Source: Spirochaetales bacterium (GTDB taxonomy: Bacteria > Spirochaetota > Spirochaetia > DSM-27196 > SLAA01). From it: a stretch of DNA of 58,338 nt. The translations under genes and the position numbers were made by a program. Location: the NCBI GenBank assembly GCA_007127105.1, contig SLAA01000117.1, positions 1 to 58,338 on the forward strand. Direction: 5' to 3'. Within the stretch, counting starts at the first letter, position 1. Every line of letters starts with the position of its first letter. Under the pieces are notes generated by a model that was not told the DNA's origin, did no database searches, and saw nothing but the letters and a program-made list of their open reading frames with translations. Of the stretch, positions 15,319 through 32,266 are shown piece after piece.

Positions 15319-18066
15319 TTAGGCGAATCGAAGGTGAAACTTCGCCCGACATATCCCGGGGAAGGCGCAGTTTTCACAACCGGCCGCGTCAGGCATTTGA
15401 TACTCGCCTGCCTGTATTCCGGCAACACAGGTGTGTATGAGGGTCCGCACAGATTGTACAGCTGCTTCTCGATCCTCCGAGTCCAGGTAGCTCTTGCGCT
15501 CGGCGGGCCCAAATACCGCTTCATACCTGGTCGACTCAATCCCCACATAGTACGCCGCCTTGGCTGGCCGACCATATTCCTCCCGCAGCATGAGATCATA
15601 CAGAGGTATCTGAAGGCTCTCGGGCCCGTCCTCACCTGGGGTCAGCTGCCTGGACTTAGGAATGTTCTTGCGCTTGTAGTCCAGAAACACGTACTCACCG
15701 TCGGACAACGCTCCTATCCTGTCTACCCGCCCGGTAAGAACTACCGGATGCTCAGCAAGCTCTATGTGCAGGCTTTTCTCCAGCTCCATGACCGAGACGC
15801 CCTCAAGCAGCTCCACCTCCTGTTCAAGGAGTTCCCACAGGTAGTCGGCCGCTCTGAGCGCGGAGGCGGGATAGGCTGCCGAGTCCAACTCCAGCTGCGC
15901 GGGAGCCCAGGACTCCAGGGTCTCTCGAATTGCGTCCTCAAGATAGACCTTGTAAACGGGGAGTTGGGAGCTGCGAAAGGCTCCATCTGATGTGGACTCT
16001 GCGGCAATGCGCCGAAAGAGTACTTCAAGAATTCGGTGGTAGAGCGTTCCGGTATCAAGGGCAGACTCGTACTCCCGCTCGGAGCTCACTTCACGCAGTT
16101 TCAGTCCATACTGCAAAAGATATCCAAAGGGGCAGTTGCGATATGCCTCAATAGGGCCGGAGGACAGCGCAATGCGGGCCTTTTCCGCCTCGGTGGCAAC
16201 GCCGGACTGTGGGCGTGGGCGTGGCGTCACGACCGCACGCAACGCTTCGGAAAGCGGTGTAAGGTTCAGCCCCGGCGGGCGGGTGTTCGGCTGCACATCC
16301 CGGAGTCTGCTCCGAGACAACTGCTGTACCGGATACCGAGCTTTTTTCGAGAGCGGATCGGACAGTTCGTCAATATATCGATCCTTACTACGGTCACGGT
16401 GAAATGCCTGAGCAGCATGTGCGAGTGAGAAGGCTGGCTCGGGCAACTCGGCCCCATGAAAGCCCTCTCGAGAGGCGCTAAACACCACCCGCTCGCCCGA
16501 CGTCGCATACAGGCGCAGCACCGCCTCGCTTTGATCTGTGGTGGACAGTCCTAACGCGGCCTTGTGATCCTCACGCACAAAGGAAAAGGGGTCGCTCTTC
16601 AGGCGGCAGTTGCGCTGGGTTGTTCCCATGACAAAGTGGAGCCGCGGTGCGCTTCCAGCCGCCACCCGGTACGAGTACACCGGAATACCGGAGGCAGGGC
16701 GGCGTGGAACATAAGACTCCTTGCGCAGCAACGACACCCAGATGCGAGCGGCATGGAGCTTGTGCTCGCCTATATACTCGGCCGCACCAACAAGCTCTTG
16801 CAGCAGAACCAGGGCGCGCTCATAGACACGCTCACTCTCTGTGTCCCATGCGCTAGAGTCCAAAAGTTCACGGCCAAACTCCATGACCGCGGTTTGCAAA
16901 GCTCGGAAACTCCCTGCCCTCGCTATAGCCTCAAGAGGGCGGGAAAACCGCTCAAAGGTTCGCAGCAGGGCGGCGCCGGTACGGGGATGGTGCCTGGCAA
17001 CAGCCTTCAACCGCGTGCGAACCTCGGTCGCTCGCCCTTCGGCGCCGTGTTCTACCATCCCGTCAAGCATGGTGAACATTTCCTCAGGGTTGCGCCACGG
17101 CACAGCCGGATTGCGAATGAGCGCAGCAAGTGCTGTAACGGTATATCCGCCCTCTGCGGCCTCAAGCAGACGAGGAAAAATGCCAGCTCCAATGGAGTCG
17201 GTGAGCGGGGACCCACCCCGGAACTGCAGCGGTATCTCCCGCAGGCGCGCCTCGGACTCAAGAAAGGGGCGGATTGAGTCAGCATTCCCAACAGTCAGCA
17301 TGATCTCGTGCTGTGCGATACCCGAATCAAGCGCCTGTTCAATCTCATCCAGCACGGCCCGAATCTCTTCAATAGCCGTTCCGTACACTCTCAGCTCGGG
17401 CAAGGGCAGGTTGGCAGTCGGTACTATACTAATGTCTTTGCAGTCGGCAACAATCGAGCTAAACATGTTGAAGTCGTCTATGGTGTCAGAAAAGAAAATG
17501 TAGGTGTGCCGAGCCGGTGACAGCCGTTCCGGCCGGAGTGATCCGGGTTCAAAAAGTCCGTGCTGATCCAGGAAGTCCTGATACTCGGCAGACAGGCGTT
17601 GATAGTCCTCAAATACTGCCGTTTCAAGAAGAGGCGTGTCGGCCTCCTTTGTCTCATCTAACAGAGCAGCGAGCGAGGGCAGGATTGCGGAGATGTACTC
17701 CGCAAAGGCTCCCGAGTTGGCCGCAAAGCTACGCGGGACAAGCGCTTCAAGAAAGGGCTCGTTGAGATTCTGGATGGTCAGCAGCTCGGCAAAGAGCCGC
17801 CGAATGAGGGAGTTTACAGGACGGCGCTCAGATCGGAGGAAGAACGCAGACTCTTTGAAGCTGTCCCAGGACAGGAACCTATTCGCACGAACCGCACGCG
17901 CTCTGCCTGGAGAGTGAGCCGTAGTTGAGGTTGAGGTTGAGGTTGAGGCAGCGGCAGTGGCGGCGTTACGCCGGTCACGCGCAACGGTCTCGGAGGGAAA
18001 CACGAAATCGCATTCCTGACCTACCTCGGCAATGAGCTTTGCTACGGCATCCTGATACTGGCCCAT
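15319..18066 (-). CDS. addB: AddB-type exonuclease subunit with Fe-S nuclease domain
   Basis: A 915-residue partner of AddA. The N-terminal two thirds is the helicase-like scaffold, but no P-loop (GxxGxGK) is present near the start, so it should not hydrolyse ATP. The C-terminal nuclease has GRVDRIG, then YVFLDYKRKN, and the four cysteines of an iron-sulphur staple: one in RNCPFG and three in CENCAFPGIC (C-x2-C-x5-C). The ATG at 18066 follows AAGGGGGAT by a few bases; 13 codons upstream are not needed. A Ser-Thr run near residue 45 comes from a short DNA repeat. Order addB then addA matches the classic Firmicutes operon. Confidence 0.88.
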   Translation of the reverse strand: MGQYQDAVAKLIAEVGQECDFVFPSETVARDRRNAATAAASTSTSTSTTAHSPGRARAVRANRFLSWDSFKESAFFLRSERRPVNSLIRRLFAELLTIQNLNEPFLEALVPRSFAANSGAFAEYISAILPSLAALLDETKEADTPLLETAVFEDYQRLSAEYQDFLDQHGLFEPGSLRPERLSPARHTYIFFSDTIDDFNMFSSIVADCKDISIVPTANLPLPELRVYGTAIEEIRAVLDEIEQALDSGIAQHEIMLTVGNADSIRPFLESEARLREIPLQFRGGSPLTDSIGAGIFPRLLEAAEGGYTVTALAALIRNPAVPWRNPEEMFTMLDGMVEHGAEGRATEVRTRLKAVARHHPRTGAALLRTFERFSRPLEAIARAGSFRALQTAVMEFGRELLDSSAWDTESERVYERALVLLQELVGAAEYIGEHKLHAARIWVSLLRKESYVPRRPASGIPVYSYRVAAGSAPRLHFVMGTTQRNCRLKSDPFSFVREDHKAALGLSTTDQSEAVLRLYATSGERVVFSASREGFHGAELPEPAFSLAHAAQAFHRDRSKDRYIDELSDPLSKKARYPVQQLSRSRLRDVQPNTRPPGLNLTPLSEALRAVVTPRPRPQSGVATEAEKARIALSSGPIEAYRNCPFGYLLQYGLKLREVSSEREYESALDTGTLYHRILEVLFRRIAAESTSDGAFRSSQLPVYKVYLEDAIRETLESWAPAQLELDSAAYPASALRAADYLWELLEQEVELLEGVSVMELEKSLHIELAEHPVVLTGRVDRIGALSDGEYVFLDYKRKNIPKSRQLTPGEDGPESLQIPLYDLMLREEYGRPAKAAYYVGIESTRYEAVFGPAERKSYLDSEDREAAVQSVRTLIHTCVAGIQAGEYQMPDAAGCENCAFPGICRAKFHLRFA
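17925..17948 (-). repeat. four tandem hexamers in addB
   Basis: Four perfect TTGAGG units (plus-strand reading) encode the alternating Ser-Thr run near the N-terminus of AddB. The six-base unit keeps the frame if copy number changes. Confidence 0.9.
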
Positions 18067-18151
18067 ATATCCCCCTTCCTGGACCCGGAAATCCCGGTGC
18101 CGCATTCAGAACCGGCCGAGCTATGCCCGCCGAATCTCGGCCTCTTAACCG

Positions 18152-18179
18152 TAAACGATCGTAGCAACTGCGCCGATAA
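18152..18179 (+). promoter_or_regulatory. sigma-28 (FliA)-like promoter of the 76-residue protein gene
   Basis: TAAA (18152-18155), 16 bases, then GCCGATAA (18172-18179). The -10 is a full match to the sigma-28 consensus, and the spacing is within the 14-16 range reported for SigD/FliA promoters. The start codon at 18203 and its GGAGG lie shortly downstream. Confidence 0.6.
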
Positions 18180-18202
18180 TAAGAAAGGGAGGAACACAAA
18201 GG

Positions 18203-18433
18203 ATGACAGATTCAACGCATGGAGCTCGGTACAAAGTTAAAGGGATCGACGGTGTGGAGACCTACATTCGCGTGCTTGCCGACCATGGTGACGGGTTCGA
18301 CATCCTCATCACCAGTGTCAGCAATGGTCGGATCAAGGAGTCAAGCGAGTTCATTGCTCGCGAGCTGCTCGAGGCCTGTCTCCGCACGGGATATATCTGC
18401 CCTGCTCCCGCAGAGAAAGTAGCTATAGCATAA
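18203..18433 (+). CDS. small cytoplasmic protein of unknown function, likely in the sigma-28 regulon
   Basis: A 76-residue protein without signal peptide or membrane segment. The N-terminal half is beta-like (ARYKVKGIDGVETYIRVL, then FDILITSV), followed by one amphipathic helix (SEFIARELLEACLRTGY) and a short Pro/Ala tail. GGAGG lies ten bases before the ATG. I do not recognise a family. The gene stands alone between divergent addB and the TPR lipoprotein gene. The sigma-28-like promoter just upstream suggests a role in motility or chemotaxis; that link rests only on the promoter. Confidence 0.75.
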   Translation: MTDSTHGARYKVKGIDGVETYIRVLADHGDGFDILITSVSNGRIKESSEFIARELLEACLRTGYICPAPAEKVAIA

Positions 18434-18493: not shown

Positions 18494-18522
18494 TTGTCTT
18501 AAAGAATAAGCATAGTTATCAT
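18494..18522 (+). promoter_or_regulatory. sigma-70 promoter of the TPR lipoprotein gene, close to leaderless
   Basis: TTGTCT, 17 bases, TATCAT (18517-18522). The -10 ends eight bases before the ATG at 18531, so the leader would be zero to two bases. No convincing ribosome-binding site precedes the start. Confidence 0.45.
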
Positions 18523-31561: not shown

Positions 31562-32242
31562 ATGGGTCGTGTATACATGGTTGCTACACCAATTGGAAAT
31601 CTGAAAGACATCACCTACCGCGCGGTTGAAATTCTCCATTCCGTGAACCTTATCCTGTGTGAAGACACCAGACATAGCCGCAAGTTGTTCCAAGCCTACG
31701 ATATTCGAGCAGAACTCTGGAGCTGCCCTCAGCAGCATCAACGCCGGGTCGCCGAGCAGCTTTGCGAACGCCTTGGCGAGGATGGCGAAGCAGCGTATGT
31801 CAGCGACGCCGGAACTCCGGGAATAAGCGATCCAGGAAGTGCCTTGGTTGAGGTGCTGTACAAGGCTGGGCATGAAGTGGTCCCCATTCCAGGCCCTTCC
31901 GCGCTTTCGGCCATCCTGAGCATTGATCCTTTCCCGGGAAAGACAGTAATTTTTGAAGGTTTTTTGTCGATCAAACGAGGAAAACGCCGATCTAGAATAA
32001 ACGAGTTGCTTGCCAGCGGTGATAAGTTTATCCTGTACGAGTCACCGTATCGTATAGTTGCAGCATTGGCCGATATGGCCGACGCTGAACCGGAGCGGCA
32101 GCTGGTGCTTGGTAGGGAAATGACTAAAATTCATGAGGAGTATCGTTTTGGCACGAGCGCTGAGATCCACAACGACTTCGCCCGACGTGATTCCATTAAG
32201 GGTGAGTTCGCACTGCTTGTATCGGGTGCAAAAAAGCGTTAA
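31562..32242 (+). CDS. rsmI: 16S rRNA (cytidine-2'-O)-methyltransferase
   Basis: A 226-residue SAM-dependent enzyme that methylates the ribose of C1402 in 16S rRNA at the ribosomal P site. The tetrapyrrole-methylase fold is clear: VATPIGNLKDITYRAVEIL at the N-terminus, CEDTRHSRKL, AYVSDAGTPGISDPGS (SAM site), and PIPGPSALSAIL. The family average is about 280 residues; this one ends soon after GEFALLVSG, so it has the short C-terminus. It begins a transcription unit, and its stop TAA lies inside the -35 element of the flgM promoter. Confidence 0.96.
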   Translation: MGRVYMVATPIGNLKDITYRAVEILHSVNLILCEDTRHSRKLFQAYDIRAELWSCPQQHQRRVAEQLCERLGEDGEAAYVSDAGTPGISDPGSALVEVLYKAGHEVVPIPGPSALSAILSIDPFPGKTVIFEGFLSIKRGKRRSRINELLASGDKFILYESPYRIVAALADMADAEPERQLVLGREMTKIHEEYRFGTSAEIHNDFARRDSIKGEFALLVSGAKKR

Positions 32243-32266
32243 AATTAAGACACCGGATGCCGATAC
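32240..32266 (+). promoter_or_regulatory. sigma-28 (FliA) promoter of flgM
   Basis: TAAAATTA (32240-32247), 11 bases, GCCGATAC (32259-32266). This matches the TAAAGTTT-N11-GCCGATAA consensus with exact spacing. The predicted start is near 32273, giving an 18-base leader with AAGGAAGG before the ATG. Confidence 0.85.

Follow-up and report, generated by a model that had tools for sequence, protein, structure and literature searches.

A stand-alone small protein family restricted to Spirochaetia is a probable member of the FliA (sigma-28) regulon

Introduction

Under the FliA/FlgM switch, the sigma factor FliA (sigma-28) becomes active after the hook-basal body has been completed and FlgM, a largely disordered helical protein, has been exported. 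The classical spacing of sigma-28 promoters is TAAA-N15-GCCGATAA, and FliA regulons include many filament-stage chaperones and accessory proteins; of the flagellar chaperones, FliS, FlgN and FliT consist of helices alone. How spirochaetes control the late flagellar stage has been little explored. Sigma-28 is missing from Borrelia and present in other spirochaetes (PMC11607428), and of the filament genes of Treponema denticola only flaB2 has been assigned to it, with a mapped start behind a −35 TTAA and a −10 CCGATAA and with preliminary data for its dependence on FliA (PMC9481697). FlgV (BB0268) is a broadly conserved spirochaetal flagellar protein which modulates the filament stage and, outside Borrelia, is conserved together with sigma-28 (PMC11607428).

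Here we describe a gene for a 76-amino-acid protein in a 58,338-nt stretch of a Spirochaetales genome (contig SLAA01000117.1; hereafter the window). The gene resembles FliA class III genes, such as flgM of the window and T. denticola flaB2, in having the same TAAA/TTAA and (G)CCGATAA boxes 15–16 nt apart and in being likewise distributed with FliA. However, its product is no relative of flagellin, FlgM, Mot or Che and falls into no Pfam or NCBIfam family, and the gene lies on its own, away from flagellar clusters. Like FlgM of the same genome, the product is small and apparently cytosolic, with the same promoter type and the same 51-nt distance from promoter to start codon, but FlgM matches PF04316, whereas neither the 76-aa protein nor any of 36 family members does, and a folded, beta-rich domain is predicted for the protein in place of a largely disordered helical one. 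FlgV is also small and linked to flagella; it has two membrane helices and occurs in Borrelia, whereas the 76-aa protein has no membrane helix or other hydrophobic segment, and no homologue was found in the 36 Borreliaceae-like genomes of family f27. FlbD/SwrD (PF06289) and CsrA (PF02599) are further small, beta-rich, flagella-tied proteins of these genomes, but they are separate genes in 20 of 20 genomes checked, and kinship with either was rejected on the lack of a Pfam match and on an hhalign probability of 0.1% against the spirochaetal members of each.

Results and discussion

The initial annotation of the window had placed an unrecognised 76-residue protein, standing alone, behind TAAA-N16-GCCGATAA, and on direct reading its coordinates, motif and length all proved correct (Table 1). 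The site, which begins 51 nt before the ATG, matches at 12 of 12 positions, and its GCCGATAA box ends 23 nt 5′ of the start codon. Among four members of the genus the ORF differs at 14–40 nt, mainly in third codon positions (from 13 of 14 to 29 of 40), with dN of 0.006–0.07 against dS of 0.29–0.97. Since this third-position bias is accompanied by dN well below dS, the substitution pattern indicates that the ORF is real and under strong purifying selection. An intrinsic terminator was looked for 3′ of the ORF and none was found; the gene may therefore be co-transcribed with the downstream TPR gene, from which it is separated by a stretch that includes a weak sigma-70-like box. An Rfam search of the region around the ORF gave no match. 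In the upstream AddB-like gene, a short tandem repeat of GTTGAG units (17924-17948) lies in the N-terminal region and encodes a Ser-Thr run, STSTSTST.

Table 1 Features of the 76-aa gene locus and of flgM in the window
Feature	Coordinates	Strand	Remarks
AddB-like PD-(D/E)XK nuclease, upstream of 76-aa ORF	15319-18105	opposite	PF12705
Sigma-28-type promoter, −35 element TAAA	18152..18155	+	read from sequence; conserved in relatives
Promoter spacer, 16 nt	18156..18171	+	invariant in four genus members
Sigma-28-type promoter, −10 element GCCGATAA	18172..18179	+	read from sequence; conserved in relatives
GGGAGG, Shine-Dalgarno-like	18187..18192	+	read from sequence; conserved in genus
76-aa ORF, new Spirochaetia-specific family	18203..18433	+	ATG 18203, stop 18431-18433
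Weak sigma-70-like box between 76-aa ORF and TPR gene	18494-18522		
TPR protein, downstream of 76-aa ORF	starts 18531		98 nt after ORF
Second sigma-28-type promoter, TAAA-N15-GCCGATAC, before flgM	32240..32266	+	
flgM, anti-sigma-28 factor, 94 aa	32291..32575	+	Pfam PF04316, E 1.7e-6, above curated cut-off

A single motif of this kind is not decisive because its looser form, TAAA-N15..17-CCGATA, is no commoner in the 3.08-Mb genome than a reversed control (8 against 12 matches); TAAA-N14..17-GCCGATAA occurs there twice, the second time within a gene. Loci of 128 homologues from 25 families were gathered, and for 122 homologues we scored the best TAAA-N15/16-GCCGATAA match within 140 nt upstream (maximum 12), with 200 other genes of the same loci as controls. 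A score of at least 10 was reached by 69 of the 122 homologues and by 1 of the 200 control genes, and p≤0.01 in a dinucleotide shuffle by 41 and 0, respectively, in agreement with a simple-shuffle run. At p≤0.02, 13 of the 23 scored families have at least one positive member, counting with the proviso that sequences of the same genus are not independent; the ten families without such a site comprise one to three members each, except f4. By the same scoring a convincing site is absent from about 40% of homologues; all nine members of the window's own family have the promoter, as do members of many further families. N16 exceeds the classical spacing by one base and is yet usual here, since the 69 strong sites divide into 35 with N15 and 34 with N16. 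The base following TAAA, which was left out of the scoring, is C or G in 58 of them.

Genus members vary in three columns of the 51-base stretch that runs from TAAA to the ATG, the −10 element reading GCCGACAA in two members, and the approximately 80 bases 5′ of TAAA have no ungapped similarity. The promoter also persists while its surroundings vary. AddB lies divergently beside the homologue only in families f1-f7, the homologue of a T. denticola-like genome lies beside TatD/EF-P and that of a T. pallidum-sized genome beside signal peptidase; in the loci read, with AddB, TatD, EF-P, signal peptidase and others as neighbours, no flagellar cluster surrounds the gene. Based on the invariance within the genus, the excess of strong sites over controls and the persistence beside changing neighbours, we accept the promoter as real, and consider its conservation across species decisive. 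The spacer is more conserved among the four genus members than a plain spacer requires, and a regulatory site overlapping it is possible.

A sigma factor to read this promoter is at hand, as the initial annotation had supposed from a second sigma-28 promoter in the window, which it correctly gave to flgM (Table 1): a profile search finds FliA in the genome (E 1e-87), and the distance from promoter to ATG in flgM, at 51 nt, equals that of the 76-aa gene. The long ORFs adjoining flgM in the window are non-flagellar. In a close relative, the same scan placed TTAA-N15-TCCGATAA ahead of the flagellin, and it gave similar sites before several other flagellins.

To relate the protein to FliA, we used a profile search of 297 Spirochaetia genomes, in which FliA was called by TIGR02479 (E<1e-70) and flagellation was judged by FlhA. 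The protein was found in 134 of them, spanning Treponema-like, Spirochaeta-like and environmental lineages, and a phylum-wide profile search of sampled genomes gave no convincing homologue outside the class Spirochaetia. Both protein and FliA occur in 131 genomes, FliA only in 66, the protein only in 3 and neither in 97, and for the 225 genomes that are at least 90% complete the corresponding counts are 99, 41, 0 and 85; these are plain, not tree-based, counts, to which a few large clades (f16, f27) give much of the weight. The exceptions, three positives without FliA and two without FlhA, are metagenome-assembled genomes 63–85% complete. The homologue is absent from f27, whose 36 small Borreliaceae-like genomes have FlhA and lack FliA, and from the 53 genomes of f10, f11, f16 and f25, which lack both; 43 of these are the Sphaerochaeta-like genomes of f16. 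FliA thus looks necessary but not sufficient for the presence of the protein, and the absence from Borrelia fits the loss of FliA there. Since 66 FliA-bearing genomes have no detectable homologue, the protein is not required for flagella as such. The proposal that the gene belongs to the motility regulon had named homologues in non-flagellated relatives, or loss of the promoter in close relatives, as observations that would count against it. Neither was encountered, in the 53 genomes above or in the nine family members, and the suggested search for spirochaete homologues that keep the TAAA/GCCGATAA pair came out in its favour.

The protein lacked recognition in the libraries as well: searches of Pfam, NCBIfam and PHROGs with it and 36 relatives gave scattered weak single hits and no family, and PDB sequence profiles held no relative. 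The best PDB profile match, RecF (E 0.02), was judged to be chance, and a viral structure library gave one uninformative match (E 7e-4), to a Bacillus phage protein that is itself uncharacterised. Literature searched under presumed, not established, locus tags close to the homologues of T. denticola and T. pallidum yielded nothing usable; the T. denticola homologue lies at about 992.37–992.58 kb of the 2,843,201-bp genome G214. The family shares the consensus Y-x-[VI]-K-G...T-Y...DGY-x-[VI]-x-[IL]...E-x-[IM]-S-[RK]-x-L-F-[DE]-x-C-[LVI]-R-T-G-Y-[LI], in which, by the numbering of the window protein, T62 is shared by all of 75 sequences and L55, C59 and Y64 by nearly all. Two distant members (76 and 70 aa) were modelled with AlphaFold from 36- and 75-row alignments; the models reached pLDDT values of 83 and 82, and both have the order beta-beta-beta-beta-alpha-beta followed by a flexible tail. 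The predicted helix bears the family signature [IM]S[RK]xLF[DE]xC[LIV]RTGY[LI]. No signal peptide or membrane helix is visible in the 76-aa sequence, and from sequence and models together we infer a small, soluble, cytosolic protein composed of a four-stranded sheet followed by a helix.

Of 123 homologues, 99 have Ala as their last residue, compared with 8.8% of 432 other long open frames at the same loci, and Ala-ending members are the majority in 16 of 23 families. The usual tail is hydrophobic-x-Ala, as in VAIA, AVNA, VLTA, SVVA and LMTA (for example, loci L104, L007 and L080), which suggests that the conserved terminal Ala marks a functional tail, which we read as a putative carboxyl-end recognition signal and possibly a weak degron. 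In E. coli the key determinant for ClpXP is a terminal Ala-Ala (PMC7652416). The genomes' own tmRNA (ssrA) tags have this AA ending, whereas none of the 123 homologues ends in Ala-Ala; this weakens a degron reading, excludes the tail from the ssrA-like class of ClpXP C-degrons and leaves a role in turnover rather doubtful.

Based on the promoter conserved before a conserved protein and on the confinement of that protein to FliA-bearing genomes, it is very likely that the 76-aa gene, which is restricted to Spirochaetia, belongs to the FliA regulon as a stand-alone member. The family is new and unnamed, its type of regulon being already known, and the same comparisons indicate that it very probably represents an undescribed late-stage motility protein. 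Under the FliA/FlgM switch, FliA-RNA polymerase would transcribe the gene only after completion of the hook-basal body and export of FlgM, alongside the filament and chemotaxis genes. The product might then bind a partner, either protein or RNA, via its helix/RTGY face, and the hydrophobic-x-Ala terminus might act as a recognition tail, possibly for turnover. Given its absence from many FliA-bearing spirochaetes, the protein should tune motility rather than form a core part, and from its size, fold and regulon we tentatively picture a cytosolic regulator or adaptor acting at the late flagellar stage, a role to which we give slightly less than an even chance. The account as a whole, joining regulon, regulator or adaptor and tail, seems to us reasonably probable.

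The competing explanations differ mostly in what the product does. That the promoter is a chance match or serves another factor, the protein being an ordinary lineage-specific gene, would agree with the failure of the looser motif to exceed its reversed control in the genome, but the contrast between 69 of 122 homologues and 1 of 200 controls, across many families and changing neighbours, and the co-occurrence with FliA make this very improbable. A FliA-driven output other than motility, for instance in metabolism or in envelope physiology coupled to the swimming state, would suit a stand-alone gene with non-flagellar neighbours that many flagellated, FliA-bearing genomes do without. We regard it as unlikely, given that the protein is confined to flagellated genomes with FliA and matches no catalytic or transport family. 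Somewhat better placed, although still not favoured, is a late assembly factor or structural accessory within the FliA regulon, such as a cytosolic export chaperone or a motor-associated protein of the periplasmic flagella. Chaperones and accessory proteins are common in FliA regulons, and the protein is small, soluble and limited to flagellated lineages; however, it is predicted to be mostly beta, whereas FliS, FlgN and FliT are all-helical, it lacks a signal peptide, and it is missing from 66 FliA-bearing genomes and unlinked to flagellar genes in the loci read.

A more specific proposal, which overlaps with the regulator or adaptor so that the likelihoods of the two are not exclusive, is a PUR-like homodimer that binds nucleic acid and adjusts the translation of motility mRNAs in the manner of Borrelia BpuR. 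The predicted beta-beta-beta-beta-alpha order is that of the PUR repeat found in Pur-alpha, BpuR and DUF3276 (PF11680) proteins, and the Pur-alpha repeat 5fgo is the top PDB fold match of both independent models, at non-significant E-values of 0.075 and 0.061, with Borrelia Pur-alpha (3n8b) ranked second by Foldseek for one of them. However, the TM-scores of these matches are 0.33–0.42 and no E-value falls below 0.001. Homology by sequence was rejected, as hhalign against spirochaetal PUR proteins gave a probability of 0.2–0.3%, at chance level, and 55 of 200 column-shuffled PUR profiles score equally high. Moreover, 109 of the 118 Spirochaetia genomes sampled encode a separate, true PUR-domain protein (DUF3276, BpuR-like), and we consider a PUR-like role improbable. 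In four f31 genomes (L092, L093, L096, L098) the homologue lies about 0.7–2 kb from a PUR-domain gene, possibly by coincidence.

With a FliA-regulon regulator or adaptor as the preferred reading, the family offers a concrete, unstudied subject for late flagellar control in spirochaetes, with a test organism at hand. As annotation libraries contain no model for it, many genomes may have it overlooked or labelled as hypothetical. A bolder form, which we think unlikely, would make the protein a class-wide spirochaetal checkpoint factor that is induced by FliA and feeds back on late flagellar gene expression, its new small beta-beta-beta-beta-alpha fold binding mRNA, FliA or FlgM. If true, spirochaetes with periplasmic flagella would have an additional regulatory layer of their own, one still kept by the reduced genome of the syphilis group. 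The homologue of that genome, which at 1.14 Mb matches T. pallidum Nichols in size, has 70 aa (locus L069, 5915-6127), adjoins the signal peptidase gene and has a degenerate promoter, CAAA-N15-ACCGAAAT. Duplicates were seen in two genomes: G042 carries two copies of the protein on two contigs, and G225 (L164) has two copies about 1 kb apart, one of the matches containing an in-frame stop.
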